A stretch of DNA of 38,143 nucleotides from Candidatus Altarchaeota archaeon. GTDB taxonomy: Archaea > Altiarchaeota > Altiarchaeia > IMC4 > SCGC-AAA252-I15. Of this stretch, positions 12,389-26,798 are shown in pieces (the first letter of the stretch is position 1; every line of letters starts with the position of its first letter). Below the pieces are notes generated by a model. It did not search any database. It worked only from the letters and a program-made list of their open reading frames with translations, and was not told the origin of the DNA. Position numbers and translations under genes: made by a program. The DNA lies in the NCBI GenBank assembly GCA_028712125.1, contig JAQTQS010000005.1:1-38143 (forward strand), given 5' to 3'.

Positions 12389-13627
12389 TCATGCGCTAAA
12401 CTTCTCAAGCGCGCGCCTTAATTCCGCATGGCTCTTGGCATACTCCTCAATGCTTTTGCCTTCCATCACCGCATCAACAGCCTGCCTCATCGAAGCAGCC
12501 CCGGCCTTCGGACTGTCGGGATGGCCGTACACGCCGCCTCCGGCTTGTATTATTATGTCGTTGCCCATGAGCTTCATCAGGTCAGGGATTAATCCCTGGT
12601 GCAGGCCGCCGGAGCACACCGGGAAGACGGTCTTCAGGCCGCGCCATTTGCCGCTTGTGTCGAGCATCTCGTCCTTTATCTGGGCCACTTCTTCGGCCGG
12701 GCCTTCCATCTTGCCTACCGCCGTTCCTATGTGAAGCTGGTCGACGCCCGCAAGCCGGCAGAGCTTTGCTAGGACTATCATTGAAATGCCATGCTTCTTG
12801 TTGCGCGTTATTGCAGCATGCATGGCACGATGAGCATGTATCGCAAGGCCGGTGTTCAGGTTGCGCATGTATTGCAATCCGGCAAAGCCGACCGTGACGA
12901 CATCAATCATCATATACCGGCCGCCGTTGCGCTTTATGTACTCGGCGCGCTTGACCATCGTCTCCACGCTCCCGCTGATGTTGCAGCCGTAGCCGAACCT
13001 CCGGGCCGTAGAGCCTTCAAGACTATGAATCATCCCAAGCGCGAGCTTTGCGCGCTCGTCAAAAGGGCAGAAATCCTGGCTCGTCAGATTCTCATCATCC
13101 TTCACGAAATCACAGCCGCCGGCCAAAGCCTCGCGGGCCGCATCACGCCAGGCCGTAGGGCTCAAACCCACCTTAGGCTTCACGATAGTTCCGACAATTG
13201 GCCGGAGAGGGATTTCAAGCATCCTCCTGATTCCCCCGACGCCGAACAGCGGGCCGGGAAACGACTTGACGTACTTCTCAGGAAGCGTAATGTCTTCAAG
13301 CCGGAGATTCTCAACATGCTTCATGCCGAAAATATTGCCCGCAACGCTCGACAAAAGCTGGGGAATGTTGCCGGGCTCGAACAACTCTAGAGGATAAGCG
13401 ATTTTCACCAAACCGGAAGAGGAATCAACGGAAAACGCACGCGGCCGCAATCGGTCGCGAATCTCCTCGCTCATCGTCGAAATGTCAGTCCAAGTCCCGA
13501 TAGAAGACTCGCCCGCAATCGCGTCAACCGCCTTCTCAAGGCTGACGTTCACTGCAGGCTCGACGCGGAACAAACAGACGACATCGCTCTTGCCCGGCTG
13601 ATAGGAAAGGTCGATATAAGATTGCAT
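12389..13627 (-). CDS. rbcL: ribulose-1,5-bisphosphate carboxylase, form III-like
   Basis: SIGTWTDIS, GNIFGMKHVENLRLEDITLP, GTIVKPKVGLSP, GGCDFVKDDEN (carbamylated Lys motif), HAHRAMHAAITR, HIGTAVGKMEG (loop 6), CSGGLHQG, QAGGGVYGHPDSPKAGA; start 13627 fits TATA at ~13652. Confidence 0.93.
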   Translation of the reverse strand: MQSYIDLSYQPGKSDVVCLFRVEPAVNVSLEKAVDAIAGESSIGTWTDISTMSEEIRDRLRPRAFSVDSSSGLVKIAYPLELFEPGNIPQLLSSVAGNIFGMKHVENLRLEDITLPEKYVKSFPGPLFGVGGIRRMLEIPLRPIVGTIVKPKVGLSPTAWRDAAREALAGGCDFVKDDENLTSQDFCPFDERAKLALGMIHSLEGSTARRFGYGCNISGSVETMVKRAEYIKRNGGRYMMIDVVTVGFAGLQYMRNLNTGLAIHAHRAMHAAITRNKKHGISMIVLAKLCRLAGVDQLHIGTAVGKMEGPAEEVAQIKDEMLDTSGKWRGLKTVFPVCSGGLHQGLIPDLMKLMGNDIIIQAGGGVYGHPDSPKAGAASMRQAVDAVMEGKSIEEYAKSHAELRRALEKFSA

Positions 13628-13709
13628 GATTAACAATCAGCGGCTGGATATAAATCCGGCCAAGGCGACCGTATTTATAATGCGGGGGTTACATTATTTC
13701 TTTAGGCGG

Positions 13710-14672
13710 ATGCTGAAAAGTGTGGAAAAACCGACTATTAAGAATGGAATGATGAAAAAGTATGGCATTTACGCCGATGCGTTCATAAGCTTTGCACTCC
13801 TCTCTTTTTTGGTTTTTTTAAACAATTCTTTGGTATCCTCTGAAAACTTGCCAGACTACAAGCTAGGATTAGCCAGCGCAGCATTTGTATTTATTTTATG
13901 CTATTATTGCTTATACAGGAATGTGAGGTCAAAAAAGGAGGCAGTAGTACTTTGGTTCATCAAAACAACGAAACGAAATTATGCAATAAGCCTTTCGATT
14001 TCAGTCTTGATGGCGTTAGCCTACTTCGCGCTTGCCGAATACCTTCATGCATTTGTCCCTTCCCTGGATAGAAGTATGATTGCCATGCTTGTTATTTCGT
14101 TCGCTTTGACTTACAGGATTATCGAATACCATCTGACAAAGAAACTTGTTTCTCCACCCTTGCTGTTGGAGAACGGCCAGACTGCCAATATGTTTTTCAA
14201 GGTTTATGTAGTAGCGTTGGCTGGCATATTTCTGTTAACGGGCGCTCTGGTGATTATTTCCCCCGAAGCGCATCCTGAAGCCCCGATGTTGAAGGAATGT
14301 GATTTAATCGAGAGTCAGCAAAGCAAGGACACGTGCTATGAGTATGCAGGTGCTAAGGTATTGAAGACGCAGGTATGCGATGAGATAGCCAACGTAACTA
14401 TAAGGGATTACTGCTATGTTGGTATTGGAGAAAAAACGAAAAGTGAGTATGTTTGTAATAACGTTACGACTTCGAAGTACAGAGATTTTTGTGTAATGCT
14501 AGTCAGCGCACAGAATAAGGACCTGAGTGCCTGTACTCAAATTAAGAATAACGTTGCATTATACACATGCTACGCAATTATTGAAAAAAACATTTCAATC
14601 TGCGAGGGGATAGAAAACCAGTCATATCAGGGGTGGTGTACTAATTTTACAGTATATTATCTGAATAAGTAG
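13710..14672 (+). CDS. polytopic membrane protein with C-terminal tandem Cys-x11-Cys repeats
   Basis: ORF 13626..14672, start likely 13710 (TATA-like TATTTATAAT near 13672). About five hydrophobic segments, then five CX11C units spaced X13/X10: CDLIESQQSKDTC, CDEIANVTIRDYC, CNNVTTSKYRDFC, CTQIKNNVALYTC, CEGIENQSYQGWC. Confidence 0.75.
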   Translation: MLKSVEKPTIKNGMMKKYGIYADAFISFALLSFLVFLNNSLVSSENLPDYKLGLASAAFVFILCYYCLYRNVRSKKEAVVLWFIKTTKRNYAISLSISVLMALAYFALAEYLHAFVPSLDRSMIAMLVISFALTYRIIEYHLTKKLVSPPLLLENGQTANMFFKVYVVALAGIFLLTGALVIISPEAHPEAPMLKECDLIESQQSKDTCYEYAGAKVLKTQVCDEIANVTIRDYCYVGIGEKTKSEYVCNNVTTSKYRDFCVMLVSAQNKDLSACTQIKNNVALYTCYAIIEKNISICEGIENQSYQGWCTNFTVYYLNK

Positions 14673-14675
14673 TGA

Positions 14676-15032
14676 TTATTTCTTCAGCATGTCCGCGAGC
14701 TTTCCCACAGAGCCCGCTATGCCGCCGATTGTTTTTTTGGCCTGCCGGTATTTCATGTAGGCCCTTATAATGTATGCCAGCCTTGGGATGAGGTAGATTA
14801 TGAGTAGGGCGATTATGTAGAATAACGCAAGACCGAGGATTGTTGACTGGCAGGCGAGGGCGAATATTATTGTCAGCACACCGGAGAGTAGGAAGTCTTT
14901 ACAGCTGGGCAGGAGCCGCTTCCTTAACTCGCCCCAGATAAGGCCGATGAGGGAGGAGGTCACTCTTGTAAGGGGTGTGGCAAATGATTTAATCAGTTTA
15001 TTCACTTTAGTTTTTTCTGTTGTACATAACAA
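14676..15032 (-). CDS. small membrane protein, unknown function
   Basis: 118 aa; DFLLSGVLTIIFALACQSTILGLALFYIIALLIIYLIPRL hydrophobic; overlaps the upstream gene. Confidence 0.5.
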   Translation of the reverse strand: MLCTTEKTKVNKLIKSFATPLTRVTSSLIGLIWGELRKRLLPSCKDFLLSGVLTIIFALACQSTILGLALFYIIALLIIYLIPRLAYIIRAYMKYRQAKKTIGGIAGSVGKLADMLKK

Positions 15033-15363
15033 AGAATATGCTCCCCAACAGAGGAAAAAATATTATAACTAGAACCCATGCTATTTTATCATTGGGATTT
15101 TTCCAGTCTTCTTTTGTTAAGCAGGAGTATAATGCATAAACAACAAGCACAATCTCGAGTAAGATGAGTAGGAGGATAATGCCGTAAAAAGTGAATATTG
15201 CAGCGAATATGCCTGTCATTACCGCAAATGGCGCCCCTAAAATAGAACAGCAGCAGAGTTCTGATGCCGCATCCGGACTTTGACTTTGCGCTGCTGATAC
15301 ATAGCTTGTTAAAAAAGTGAGGATAAAACACATCGTAATTAGGTAGGGATTAGATTTCTTCAT
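15007..15363 (-). CDS. membrane protein with signal peptide, CCC motif and PLDc_N-like TM domain
   Basis: MKKSNPYLITMCFILTFLTSYVSAAQS (signal peptide), ELCCCSILG, C-terminal WKNPNDKIAWVLVIIFFPLLGSIFFVMYNRKN similar to phospholipase D nuclease N-terminal TM domain. Confidence 0.6.
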   Translation of the reverse strand: MKKSNPYLITMCFILTFLTSYVSAAQSQSPDAASELCCCSILGAPFAVMTGIFAAIFTFYGIILLLILLEIVLVVYALYSCLTKEDWKNPNDKIAWVLVIIFFPLLGSIFFVMYNRKN

Positions 15364-15406
15364 TGTAGGGTAATTACTATATCCCTTGTGATATTGTTGC
15401 ATAATC

Positions 15407-16021: not shown

Positions 16022-16672
16022 TTAAGACGTGGTTTGCGGCGCGACTTCGGCCGAGAGCCGTTTCCGGAATCGTTCGAGCACCCTGAGGAGCGGGCGACCC
16101 AGCGCGAGCATGAAGAGGACGTTGCCGGTTGCGCGGGCGGTGTCCATCGGCAGGCCTGCGGATACGACGGCGATGTAGGTCGTTATTGAAGGCTCGGCTG
16201 AGAATGCGCTCCACCAGAAGAGGTCTGTGATTAGGCCGTATGCGTATGCCGAGAGGACGGTGTATATTATTAGTAGTATTATTGTCAACCTTTTCCTGTT
16301 GGATGGTATGAAGCCTGCGAAGAATCCTGTAAGGCCGAGGCCGAGCATCTGGTATGGCGTCCAGGGGCCGTGGCCGAGCATGAAGTTCGAGAGGAGGATT
16401 GTGGATGCGCCGAGCATGAAGCCTGTCGAGCTTCCGTAGACGCTGCCGGCCAATGTTACGAGCATGAAGACAGGGGAGAATTCGCCGAGCGAGTGGAGGA
16501 GCTGCCTTGATACGACCGTGAGGGCGGTTAGCATTCCTATCAATGCGATGGTCTTCGGGTTTGCGGTCCGCTCGAACCTTAGCGCGAGTGCGATGCATGC
16601 CGTTATAGTTATCGCAAGCGTGAGCGCCGCCCAGTTGAAAGTTATGTATTCAAGCATTGCTTCTGCCCCCAT
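16022..16672 (-). CDS. ECF transporter S (substrate-specificity) component
   Basis: Polytopic; GEFSPVFMLVTLAGSVYGSSTGFMLGASTILLSNFMLGHGPWTPYQMLGLGLTGFFAGF; overlaps the ECF ATPase. Alternative start 16657. Confidence 0.82.
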   Translation of the reverse strand: MGAEAMLEYITFNWAALTLAITITACIALALRFERTANPKTIALIGMLTALTVVSRQLLHSLGEFSPVFMLVTLAGSVYGSSTGFMLGASTILLSNFMLGHGPWTPYQMLGLGLTGFFAGFIPSNRKRLTIILLIIYTVLSAYAYGLITDLFWWSAFSAEPSITTYIAVVSAGLPMDTARATGNVLFMLALGRPLLRVLERFRKRLSAEVAPQTTS

Positions 16673-18023
16673 GTTTTTCCTGGCCCGCGATGCGGCCTTC
16701 TGAAAGCCTTATCGTTCGGTCGGCGCGCTCTGCGAGGTCCGCATCATGCGTGGCGATTATTATCGTCGAGCCTTGCTGCTTGAGGCGGTCGAGGACTGTA
16801 AGCAGCCTTGAGCGGGATTCAGGGTCTATCCCCCTTGTCGGCTCGTCAAGGGCTATGATTTTCGGGCTTGCGACCATGATGGATGCAAGCGCGACCCTTT
16901 GCCGTTCTCCGCCGGAAAGGTCGCGGGGATAGCGGCCCTTGTATTCCGAAAGCGAGAAGTCGCGGAGCGTTCCGTCTATGCCGCCTTTTTTACCGAGGTT
17001 TGCTAGCGTGAACGAAAGCTCGCCTTCAACGCTCTCGCAGAAGAGGCAGTCGTCCGGGTTCTGGGATAGCAGGCCGACCGTTGCCGCAAGACGCTCGACG
17101 TCCGTTTCCCTGGTGTTCATGCCGTATACCGTGACGTCGCCGGCGCCGGGCTTCAGCAGGCCGTTGAGGTGCTTTAACAGCGTTGTTTTTCCAGAGCCGT
17201 TCGGGCCGGTGATGCTTATGTGCTCGCCTTCATGGACGGACAGATTTATGCCGTCGAGTATTTTTTTCCCTGATATGCTGTATGACAAGTTGGAGATTCG
17301 CACAACGGCCCTGCCTGTTTTTCCTGCCCGATTTTTAGGAGGTATTTTCGCATTCTGTGCTGGCGCACCCCCCATGTTTATGGCCATTCCGGCATTTTCA
17401 GGCATTTTGTAGTTGTGTTCGACAAGGACTATCGTCGTCCGGTCTTTTTTGTTTAGTTTGAGCAATAGTTCGTTGAGGCGCCGCACGGACTCTTGGTCGA
17501 GCTGGGAGCACGGCTCGTCGAGCAGAAGGATTTTAGGCTTCATCGCGATGACTGCGGCGGTTACAATCTTCTGCTTTTCGCCGGCTGAAAGCATGCTGGT
17601 CTTGCGGCCGAGCAGATTGCTTATGGAAAGCTCGTTTGCTATCCACTTGATTCTTTCCTCGATTTCTTTTTGGGAGAGCCGCATGTTCTCAAGGCCGAAC
17701 GCTATCTCGCTTTCCACGCCGGTGCAGACAATCTGGTTTTCAGGGTCTTGGAAGACTGTGCCAACGTCCGATGATATGTCCTCGACATTGCTTTTCAGCG
17801 TGTCGCGGCCGTTGACAGTCACATTGCCGCCGTATACGCCGCCTCCGTAGTGCGGGATGAGGCCGTTTATGCATTTCAGGAACGTGGTCTTCCCAGAGCC
17901 TGACGGGCCTTGGACTAGGACGAATGAGCCTTCCGGTATCGAGGAGTTCATGCGGTAGAGCGCGTTTTCGCGCGCGTCCGGGTGGCGGTATGACACGCCC
18001 TTGAATTCAATTATCGGCTTCAT
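16650..18023 (-). CDS. ecfA: ECF transporter ATPase, two ABC domains fused (EcfA1-EcfA2)
   Basis: Two Walker A motifs (GPSGSGKTTFLKC; GPNGSGKTTLLKH), two ABC signatures (LSAGEKQKI; LSGGERQRVALAS), two Walker B (ILLLDEP; IIALDEP). Confidence 0.93.
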   Translation of the reverse strand: MKPIIEFKGVSYRHPDARENALYRMNSSIPEGSFVLVQGPSGSGKTTFLKCINGLIPHYGGGVYGGNVTVNGRDTLKSNVEDISSDVGTVFQDPENQIVCTGVESEIAFGLENMRLSQKEIEERIKWIANELSISNLLGRKTSMLSAGEKQKIVTAAVIAMKPKILLLDEPCSQLDQESVRRLNELLLKLNKKDRTTIVLVEHNYKMPENAGMAINMGGAPAQNAKIPPKNRAGKTGRAVVRISNLSYSISGKKILDGINLSVHEGEHISITGPNGSGKTTLLKHLNGLLKPGAGDVTVYGMNTRETDVERLAATVGLLSQNPDDCLFCESVEGELSFTLANLGKKGGIDGTLRDFSLSEYKGRYPRDLSGGERQRVALASIMVASPKIIALDEPTRGIDPESRSRLLTVLDRLKQQGSTIIIATHDADLAERADRTIRLSEGRIAGQEKHGGRSNA

Positions 18024-18870
18024 TGCTTACCATGGGTATTGCGAATAGTGCGATTGCAATGACGGGTATGATGTTGACTTGGGGGACGAGCGAGCGGTAG
18101 GGCCAGTAGTCCAGAATGCCGCTTGCTGCCGACAATGCCAGCATTACGATGGACGCGGCGAGGGCCAGCAGCGGGAGGTAGTCTGACTTTTGCAGCGATT
18201 CGGTCTTGTATGTGGTGCGGTTCTTGTTGTAGGACCTGCATGCCATGGACTCTGCGAGGTTGAATGAGCGTTCGAGCGACGAGACGACTGCCGGGATGAT
18301 TAATGCTGAGTGTTTTGAAAGTCTTGAGATGAGGCTCCCGGACGAGAGGGCAAGGCCCCGCGAGCGCTGGGCGTCTCGTATGGACTGCATGTCGTCCGAG
18401 ACTACGGGGGTGAAGCGAAGCGCTATGGACATTAGGAGGGACGAGCTTGACAGGAGCGGCGGTGTTATTCTCAGTATGGACTCTGGCGGAACCAGGGCCG
18501 AGAATATTGCGAATGCGAGGAGCATGTCCATTATGAGCACGGCCATGATGAGGCCGAATGCTGTGGATTCCAATGTTATCGGGCCTCCGATGAGGAAGAG
18601 CGGGATTTGGATTTCCGAAAGTTGTATTTTATTCGGGATTTCCAGCAGCACGGTGCTTCCCTTGTGCACGAACAGCACGTTTACGAATAGCGGGAGGAGG
18701 CCGAATGCGAGTCCTGCGCGAATCGTCTGCCTGTAGTTTATCTTTTGGCTTGCCGCCGTCCATGCTAGCGTCATCAGGAGCGCGAGCAGGTATACCGGGT
18801 TGTATGTCAGCACGCCTGCCGCAACTGTTGCGGTAAGCCAGAGCGCCAGTATTTTTGCGTTGTAAGCCAT
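18007..18870 (-). CDS. ecfT: ECF transporter transmembrane T component
   Basis: Polytopic protein with SLLMSIALRFTPVVSDDMQSIRDAQRSRGL and SSLERSFNLAESMACRSY, typical EcfT cytoplasmic motifs; start MAYNAKILALWL at 18870. Confidence 0.9.
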   Translation of the reverse strand: MAYNAKILALWLTATVAAGVLTYNPVYLLALLMTLAWTAASQKINYRQTIRAGLAFGLLPLFVNVLFVHKGSTVLLEIPNKIQLSEIQIPLFLIGGPITLESTAFGLIMAVLIMDMLLAFAIFSALVPPESILRITPPLLSSSSLLMSIALRFTPVVSDDMQSIRDAQRSRGLALSSGSLISRLSKHSALIIPAVVSSLERSFNLAESMACRSYNKNRTTYKTESLQKSDYLPLLALAASIVMLALSAASGILDYWPYRSLVPQVNIIPVIAIALFAIPMVSNEADN

Positions 18871-18887
18871 TTTTAAATCAGGAATCA

Positions 18888-18908
18888 ATATGGATATATT
18901 ATCCATAT
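18888..18908. promoter_or_regulatory. perfect 21-bp palindrome in shared divergent promoter (ATATGGATA-TAT-TATCCATAT)
   Basis: 9-bp perfect inverted arms, 3-bp AT spacer, between ecfT start (18870) and DUF4430-like gene start (18917). Confidence 0.75.
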
Positions 18909-18916
18909 CTATTGAA

Positions 18917-19987
18917 ATGGACAGTAAAAAAGCGATAATTACGGCCCTTATGCTCGCGCTCACCATGACGACGGCCCACGCCGCACGCGTAGGAGTCGTA
19001 ATAAGCTTCCCGGACGGCACAACTAGCACCGCATGCGCGGAAGTATCTGAGAACGCGAACGCATACGACGTGATACGGCAATCCGACCTGCCGATAGAAT
19101 GGAGCTACGACGCGCTCTGGGGCCACGGCCTCTGCGGCATCAACGGCATAGGCTGCGCTTCGGACAACTGCTACTGCAGCAGCGACTACTGGGGCTTCTA
19201 CATATACTCGATAGGATGGAAATACAGCCCTGTGGGATTCGACGGAGGGGACACATGCTGGAACGGCGAATTGGACTCCTATGAAGGCCACTACTGCGCC
19301 CGCGACGGGGATTTGCTGGGACTTGCATACGGCCCATACGGCACAAAGCCGAAAAGGATTTCCTTCGGCGACATATGCACGAAAGATGAGCAGCCGGGAT
19401 ACGGCGGTGAAGGATTATTCAACATGACTGTAAACATGACAGACCCCATACACAGGAACAGCCTCGTAGAGCTAACGGTTTACGACATCAAGAGGAACAG
19501 GACTGTGAAAAAGGCGACCGTGATAGTATATGACAACAACGCAGGAACCGGCAGGCTCTACGAAGGCGTGACCGACGCGAACGGAACTTCCGAGTTCACA
19601 ATAACTAGGACAGGCATGTATACGCTTGAGATACGCGCACTCGACTACCATACGATAAGCCGGATGATAAACGTCGCCGACCCGACAACCACGACCATGG
19701 AAACAACCACCAGCACGCAGACGACGACAACAACAACCGAGCCCTCAACCACAGAAGAGACAAGACTTCCACACTTCCTGTACCTCCCAAAGACGACCAG
19801 CAGCATACAAACGACAACGACGCTGCAGGAGCCGACAACCACGATACAGACGGCGACAACGACAATCGAGGAGCCGAAGGTGATAGGAATGGCGGCAAGC
19901 CAGACGCCAGACAACTTTGGGCAGGGCATCCTGCTCGCCGCGATAGCGATTGGCCTGACGTTCGCATACCTGATGCTGCGGCGGTAA
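18917..19987 (+). CDS. secreted/anchored DUF4430 (transcobalamin-like) protein with Thr-rich stalk and C-terminal TM anchor
   Basis: Signal peptide MDSKKAIITALMLALTMTTAHAA; AYDVIRQSDLPIEWSYDALWGHGLCGINGIG...YWGFYIYSIGWKYSPVGFD...ARDGDLLGLAYGPYG; stalk TTTTMETTTSTQTTTTTTEPSTTEE; C-terminal GILLAAIAIGLTFAYLMLRR. Confidence 0.78.
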   Translation: MDSKKAIITALMLALTMTTAHAARVGVVISFPDGTTSTACAEVSENANAYDVIRQSDLPIEWSYDALWGHGLCGINGIGCASDNCYCSSDYWGFYIYSIGWKYSPVGFDGGDTCWNGELDSYEGHYCARDGDLLGLAYGPYGTKPKRISFGDICTKDEQPGYGGEGLFNMTVNMTDPIHRNSLVELTVYDIKRNRTVKKATVIVYDNNAGTGRLYEGVTDANGTSEFTITRTGMYTLEIRALDYHTISRMINVADPTTTTMETTTSTQTTTTTTEPSTTEETRLPHFLYLPKTTSSIQTTTTLQEPTTTIQTATTTIEEPKVIGMAASQTPDNFGQGILLAAIAIGLTFAYLMLRR

Positions 19988-25733: not shown

Positions 25734-26798
25734 ATGAGTGATAAGGTAGTCAATTCAATGATTTTGGACGTAGTAAAGGATGTAAAAGATACGATTTTCT
25801 CAGTCTATTTTGTGATTTGCTTTCTTGCGATTATAACCCTTTTTGTTTACGACACACTCACTTTTACCCAAGAAAGCGGGATTAGACCAATTGCGTATAT
25901 GCTAGGAATAAGCATAATTCTTCCAGTGCTATGCTTCTGTTTGTTTTCCATTACATTAATGGCTAGGTTCTTAACAAAGCACCAACTAGTAGTCGGGATA
26001 AGTACACTTTTTTGGAGGATATTTCTGTTTATACTAAACTTGTCAATATTGTATTTGATTATCTACATCGCATATCTCATACTGACTGTCTCTTATCTTT
26101 TTGTGTTTGATAAAGAATTTTATTGTATGGTAGAGGGAGTAGATACCGGTGAAATTGTCATTGAACACGCTTTGGAGACTGGCGATGCATCAGGATGTAA
26201 TATATTGCTCTGTAGATATGGTAGGGGGGGTTGTTACTCAGCTGTAGCACAAATTACGGGCAACTTAACACTTTGCAATCAAATAGAAGAACCAGTTCAG
26301 AGGGATAGTTGTTTCTCATTAATTGCTACCAACAAGAGTGATTATTTGGTATGTGATAAAGTACAGAATCAAAGTAGTAGAGAGGAATGTTATGCTATAA
26401 TTAAGATAAACGTGTCAATTTGCGATGAAATCCAAGACATTGATACAAGAGTATGGTGCTATGAAAAGATTGCTGAGAATACGAGAGATGCATCAATTTG
26501 TGATAAAATAGAAAGCCAAGGCCAGAGGGGGCTCTGTTTAGACAACATTGCAAGTGAAGTCCTGAATGCTTCTATTTGCGATGAAATTCAAGGTGAGTAT
26601 CCACGTAACCATTGCTATCACGTTTGTGCTTGGAAATTAGGGGACACATCATTATGTAATAAAATACGAGGTGAAGATGAGTTACACGACATACCTTTCT
26701 GCTACGAAATCGTTGCAAAAGCTACGAAGAACACTTCAATATGCGATTCGTTCCAAGAGGGCTTAGATAAACGAGATTGTTATCGGAGTATAAGCTAG
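25734..26798 (+). CDS. polytopic membrane protein with C-terminal tandem 26-aa Cys repeats (8 units), paralogue-like to 13710..14672
   Basis: N-terminal hydrophobic helices, then units such as CNQIEEPVQRDSC, CDKVQNQSSREEC, CDEIQDIDTRVWC, CDKIESQGQRGLC, CDEIQGEYPRNHC, CDSFQEGLDKRDC; AT-rich DNA. Confidence 0.8.
   Translation: MSDKVVNSMILDVVKDVKDTIFSVYFVICFLAIITLFVYDTLTFTQESGIRPIAYMLGISIILPVLCFCLFSITLMARFLTKHQLVVGISTLFWRIFLFILNLSILYLIIYIAYLILTVSYLFVFDKEFYCMVEGVDTGEIVIEHALETGDASGCNILLCRYGRGGCYSAVAQITGNLTLCNQIEEPVQRDSCFSLIATNKSDYLVCDKVQNQSSREECYAIIKINVSICDEIQDIDTRVWCYEKIAENTRDASICDKIESQGQRGLCLDNIASEVLNASICDEIQGEYPRNHCYHVCAWKLGDTSLCNKIRGEDELHDIPFCYEIVAKATKNTSICDSFQEGLDKRDCYRSIS

Follow-up and report, generated by a model that had tools for sequence, protein, structure and literature searches.

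The window, the whole 38,143-nucleotide stretch of DNA analysed here (contig JAQTQS010000005.1 of a Candidatus Altarchaeota archaeon), carries at positions 25734..26798 of the + strand a gene for a 354-aa protein in which a membrane anchor precedes eight 26-aa α-hairpin units, as judged from the open reading frame list and an AlphaFold2 (AF2) model of the whole protein (mean pLDDT 81.8). The N-terminal anchor (25734..26132, + strand) comprises three transmembrane (TM) helices, on which hydropathy and AF2 concur; the model helices span residues 3–48, 52–81 and 87–133, and a positive-inside count also underlies the assignment. The repeat domain follows at 26184-26795 (+ strand; residues 151–354).

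All eight units lie on the + strand. Unit 1 (26184..26261; DASGCNILLCRYGRGGCYSAVAQITG), whose two helices occupy residues 3–8 and 12–26 of the repeat model, is followed by unit 2 (26262..26339; NLTLCNQIEEPVQRDSCFSLIATNKS) and by unit 3 (26340..26408; DYLVCDKVQNQSSREECYAIIKI), which has a shortened helix B in the model and a short x10 junction to unit 4 (26409..26486; NVSICDEIQDIDTRVWCYEKIAENTR). Unit 5 (26487..26564; DASICDKIESQGQRGLCLDNIASEVL) precedes unit 6 (26565..26642; NASICDEIQGEYPRNHCYHVCAWKLG), which holds one extra Cys, unit 7 (26643..26729; DTSLCNKIRGEDELHDIPFCYEIVAKATK), which has a three-residue insertion between helices A and B, and the C-terminal unit 8 (26730..26795; NTSICDSFQEGLDKRDCYRSIS). 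The first and second Cys residues of the units (C1 and C2) form the pairs 155/167, 181/193, 207/219, 230/242, 256/268, 282/294, 308/323 and 337/349, with x11 spacing in seven of the eight and x14 in the other. Six of the seven junctions between C2 and the next C1 are x13, and one (219 to 230) is x10. Cys pairs at a distance of 26 residues number 10, against a mean of 1.3 and a maximum of 6 in 20,000 shuffles of the domain. The C-x11-C repeat is real and far beyond chance, and the description of eight tandem 26-aa Cys units behind TM helices, given in an initial annotation made from the sequence alone, is confirmed. The short C2-x10-C1 junction recurs (CYAIIKINVSIC / CYAIIEKNISIC; window positions 26382-26420 and 14563-14600; L019 and others), with 26 cases in the collected set; it makes helix B shorter and may introduce a kink into the superhelix.

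The same annotation took near-identical DNA in some units as a sign of recent unit duplication, a proposal that we reject. The near-identity is confined to the 22-nt motif core, where two mismatches in 21 nt encode the same peptide (SICDEIQ), and the probability of two or fewer mismatches under the gene's own codon use is 0.14. Whole 78-nt units share 33–56% of their bases, and TRF reported no tandem array.

A second family gene lies at 13626..14672 (+ strand) and encodes 348 aa with the same layout, namely about five TM helices and then five Cys units (14286-14669). Its product matches that of the first gene by BLASTP (32% over 79 aa, E=2e-13). This gene (40.3% G+C) opens a low-G+C patch, window 13626-15402, that continues through 14676-15032 (47.3%) and 15007-15402 (37.1%), the last encoding a PLDc_N-like short membrane protein; the patch is flanked by a RuBisCO large-chain gene and an imidazole-glycerol-phosphate-dehydratase-like gene. 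Elsewhere in the window, 16022-19987 holds ECF-type vitamin transporter-like genes (two ATPase domains in one protein, and membrane proteins). The adjoining frame 18890-19987 encodes a surface protein with a Thr-rich stalk and a weak carboxypeptidase-regulatory-like domain, possibly an uptake receptor.

The G+C content of the gene at 25734-26798 is 36.8%, against 50–57% for most of its neighbours. Homologues of its repeat domain are present in many genomes, whereas its TM part has no homologue among the fetched loci. Because of this low G+C and the lack of a relative of the membrane part among those loci, the gene appears to be either a young or a foreign copy in its genome. Ordinary G+C is seen in most of the other family copies there.

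Alignment of 350 distinct units yields the consensus K-[QK]-[D/N]-x-S-[I/L]-C-[D/E]-K-I-x-D-x3-[K/R]-D-x-C-Y-x2-[V/I]-A, in which Cys is the most conserved residue. Of 615 in-phase units, 595 have both Cys residues at the exact spacing, and almost every exception keeps C2 after an insertion in the loop between helices A and B. In 84 of 99 proteins, the Cys residues of the repeat domain add up to an even number. A pairing test based on the joint loss of Cys residues, run at a strict cut-off, found real losses too rare to decide. In the AF2 model of the repeat domain (mean pLDDT 91.8, pTM 0.73), every unit is an α-hairpin in which a 6-residue helix A with C1 is followed by a 15-residue helix B with C2.

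Placement of the repeats of the window gene outside the cell is supported by the odd number of TM helices, the positive-inside rule and the lipoprotein paralogues. Lys and Arg count 2 outside and 6 inside for 25734-26798, and 2 and 18 for 13626-14672. Among ten multi-TM members, with TM counts taken from hydropathy only, eight agree with repeats on the outside, one is a tie and one disagrees. The repeat domain is very probably both exported and helical, and topology and structure prediction bear out the C-terminus outside and the stacking of the units as a chain of α-hairpins. In the picture of an extracellular, disulfide-bonded solenoid that the initial annotation had drawn, the membrane anchor, the outward placement, the stacked hairpins and the pairing of the Cys residues hold, with the bonds themselves probable. 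We consider it likely that C1 and C2 form disulfides, because the Cys residues come in pairs and in even number and are placed extracellularly. The organism's own genome encodes a membrane-anchored tandem DsbA-fold protein with three CxxC-like sites (one CTTC and two CPYG), and no match to VKOR was found in that genome.

Helical proteins lined with Cys can also store metal, as copper storage proteins do, and the prominence of Cys as the most conserved residue would suit a solenoid whose 16 paired Cys bind Cu, Zn or Fe-S. Such a metal or cofactor role is nevertheless very improbable: the unit logo shows no conserved His, CxxC or CxxxC partner, each helix contributes a single Cys, the proteins are exported, and no metal-binding Pfam or NCBIfam family matched.

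The repeat domain was also described as studded with N-glycosylation sequons. As a count this is right, since the domain contains six N-x-S/T sequons against 1.5 expected from shuffles (P=0.002). As the sign of a glycosylated surface it is not supported. The Asn of the main sequons (N177, N226, N278 and N333) lies at position −4 from C1, which in the AF2 model is the residue directly before helix A and hence its N-cap, and D252 occupies the same place in its own unit. Across all lineages, position −4 is Asp in 60% of units and Asn in 23%. Of 74 archaeal units with Asn at −4, 53 have Ser or Thr at −2; of 145 with Asp, 95 do (p=0.45; p=0.89 over all units). CPR bacteria carry the same [D/N]xS motif. 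Because Asn and Asp at −4 equally precede Ser or Thr, the surplus of sequons is best read as a by-product of helix N-capping. The genome does encode an AglB with a WWDYG motif, which makes N-glycosylation as such possible, and Thr is slightly favoured over Ser after Asn compared with Asp (14:39 versus 10:85, p=0.019), which leaves room for some of it. A glycan-shielded surface protein with sequons selected for N-glycosylation would fit the surplus, the AglB and the Thr excess, and is improbable in view of the equal treatment of Asn and Asp, the capping position and the motif in CPR bacteria.

The window gene belongs to a family with at least 13 members in its own genome (1.41 Mb in 97 contigs, 89% complete). 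Most of these are predicted lipoproteins with a clear lipobox, and several have Thr-rich linkers. Across the family, nearly all complete proteins (69 proteins) have an export or anchor element, whether signal, lipobox or TM helix, ahead of the repeats; most members are stand-alone lipoproteins without an enzyme domain, and arrays reach 802 aa. Surroundings differ among nine own-genome members, with no conserved neighbour genes, and an operon or partner gene for the family is rejected on this ground. Two of the neighbourhoods hold further exported candidates. At L138:754-3039, next to a family lipoprotein of the same genome, lies an exported protein of 761 aa, rich in Cys, that has a HEFSH metallopeptidase-like motif and ends in a TM helix. 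A Ser/Thr-rich, exported-looking protein at L135:41-1380, overlapped by a long repetitive open frame, adjoins a family lipoprotein and glycosyltransferase-like and sugar-biosynthesis-like genes.

One group within the family carries a CxDGxxNxxExGxDCGGPCxxC-like motif ahead of the repeats (loci L019, L020, L022, L024, L025, L026, L028 and L031). Most genomes of the window's taxonomic family have a representative of this group, with a stable array of about 8–10 units, whereas other members are copy-specific, and the window gene has no orthologue among the G024 members examined. A structural role, in which the anchored arrays form a stiff envelope layer or stalk without specific binding, would fit the conserved group, the very regular disulfide-type units, the Thr-rich linkers, the many copies per genome and the length of the arrays. 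We regard this coat or spacer function as fairly unlikely. Positions outside the unit core diverge strongly across the family and copies vary between genomes, which is more like binding surfaces than a lattice.

A scan of one genome per species (85,462 species), in which two degenerate peptide patterns were followed by tblastn confirmation, returned 33 loci, all from Altiarchaeota, DPANN archaea or CPR/Patescibacteria save one mis-binned contig. The DPANN groups are Diapherotrites, Micrarchaeota, Woesearchaeota, Nanoarchaeota and Nanohalarchaeota, and one record is named only ‘archaeon’. One of the 33, from Altiarchaeales B80_G16 (L049), is 100% identical to the query row from L036, a locus in a genome of the window's own order, a match that would place the window in Altiarchaeota. 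The exception (L063; JAAYPA010000072.1) is filed as Mollicutes and over all of its 3,261 bp shares 99.8% identity with a contig of Paceibacterota STE_68, so that spread to Mollicutes is rejected. Because only near-consensus members are detectable in this way, the scan gives the range of the typical form rather than of every relative.

A profile search, which the initial annotation had proposed for archaeal genomes, was run with profile A1 at E<=0.001. Positives numbered 26 among the 29 genomes of Altiarchaeota, the window's phylum, 57 among 270 genomes of other archaea and 33 among 290 of the CPR phylum, where 89% of sampled genomes had no match. In the control phylum, that of the mis-binned genome, the single positive among 299 was the contaminant itself. 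Several genomes reach 10–31 profile matches each. In a single-gene RpoB tree (76 sequences with named anchors, midpoint root), 34 of the 35 sampled positive archaea outside the phylum group with named DPANN or beside Altiarchaeota. G511 (3.8 Mb, 6% contamination, 27 matches) is placed only weakly, on the DPANN side. The remaining clade was formed by 18 of the 26 sampled negatives, and the one positive there was G583. Its member (L218, G583:C63) is genuine: a large polytopic membrane protein, resembling a GT-C glycosyltransferase, ends in a TM helix followed by three units. The archaeon that encodes it falls outside the DPANN clades in the tree. Given the genuine G583 positive, the family is not strictly confined to Altiarchaeota, DPANN and CPR, although its concentration there is strong. 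No relatives were found in 2.9 million viral contigs or in 50,697 phage and 72,556 plasmid records, and a viral origin is rejected.

A working model can be built on these data. The window gene would produce a surface protein held in the membrane by its anchor, with eight α-hairpins of 26 residues each forming a rigid superhelix in the C-terminal half. In each hairpin, Asp or Asn at −4 together with Ser at −2 would cap the short helix A with C1; a disulfide would most likely staple C1 to C2 in the long helix B, allowing survival outside the cell. The gene would be one paralogue of a large, fast-turning-over family with lipoprotein, signal-anchor or multi-TM anchors, and the family's arrays may offer protein-binding surfaces through which other cells or envelope partners are contacted.

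To the reading that best fits the data, an exported α-solenoid, probably disulfide-stapled and, as we infer, exposed at the surface in vivo for protein binding or cell contact, we give about an even chance. The role in contact or binding is our best guess, one that could equally prove wrong. In its favour are the concentration of the family in groups whose cultured DPANN and CPR members are largely host-attached and, for the disulfides, the DsbA-fold protein with its CTTC site. The many paralogues, with copies that differ by lineage and share no conserved neighbours, are in keeping with diversifying surface proteins. Counting against the reading are the lack of a shared neighbour gene that points to a pathway, the many sampled CPR genomes without a match, the missing VKOR match and the two CPYG sites of the DsbA-fold protein. 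An unlikely alternative is a scaffold or regulatory module, in which a TPR-like superhelix would have membrane-enzyme subunits rather than other cells as its partners; the units fused behind multi-TM domains in the window and at the end of the GT-C-like protein of G583 point this way, as do, weakly, the nearest folds, and yet most members are stand-alone lipoproteins with neither enzyme domain nor conserved neighbour.

Most DPANN archaea and CPR bacteria have not been cultured, and little is known of the ways in which they recognize and hold other cells. Cultured members of both groups are described as largely host-attached (PMC11329633, PMC12206443). Free-living Altiarchaeota have also been described (PMC4975002), so attachment to a host is not the general lifestyle of that phylum. 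A broader proposal, that the Cys-stapled α-hairpin repeat, undescribed so far and nearly absent outside CPR, DPANN and Altiarchaeota, is a common toolkit by which these minimal-genome cells contact their partners, spread partly by inter-domain transfer, is one we hold only tentatively and with more doubt than confidence. The interest of the family lies in its distribution and number of paralogues more than in the single window gene, and the distribution makes the family a testable candidate for how tiny-genome cells, many of them attached to other microbes, touch their partners. Missed by current family libraries, it supplies concrete proteins to express, localize and use as bait, and its profile is a tool for finding such surface genes in metagenomes. 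If the binding role fails, the family would still offer protein design a small new solenoid, probably stapled by disulfides.

The surface repeats form an uncatalogued family that none of the protein-family libraries searched contains. Pfam, NCBIfam and PDB sequences gave nothing above chance, no fold in the PDB or among viral proteins matched at E<=0.001, and the core motif was not found printed in any paper of the open-access literature searched. The best Foldseek matches are TPR, SNAP and retromer α-solenoids (E-values of 0.03 and above, TM-score at most 0.34), which share the stacked antiparallel α-hairpin superhelix and lack the Cys pairs. Membership of the TPR class is contradicted by a period of 26 aa instead of a 34-aa unit, and neither a TPR Pfam match nor a close TPR fold was found.

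Sel1-like proteins such as the Hcp family have units of about 36 aa. They resemble the present family as secreted α/α-hairpin solenoids with disulfide-bonded repeats, established in theirs and inferred here, and the AF2 secondary structure shows the α/α hairpin that defines Sel1-like repeats. The 26-aa period falls outside the Sel1 range of about 36–44 aa, the Pfam model of Sel1 (PF08238) matched neither the window protein nor any of 17 relatives at E<=1, and no Hcp structure was among the 50 best fold matches. HcpB and HcpC have been named as rare repeat proteins with intramolecular disulfides (PMC2581425). The same report describes the repeat region of CagY of Helicobacter pylori, in which tandem α-helical repeats with regular Cys lie beside TM segments at the cell surface, with an A motif of 38–39 aa and arrays that vary by slippage at the DNA level (PMC2581425). 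The repeats studied here are likewise predicted to be helical and outside; they differ in having 26-aa units without DNA-level repeats and in occurring in archaea and CPR. Compared by description only, the large Cys-rich extracellular proteins of CPR Peregrinibacteria are reported as weakly like Myxococcus Cys-rich repeats rather than a 26-aa C-x11-C-x13 hairpin, and the likeness to our family is that they are CPR proteins, exported and very Cys-rich, with a proposed role in attachment (PMC4736985).
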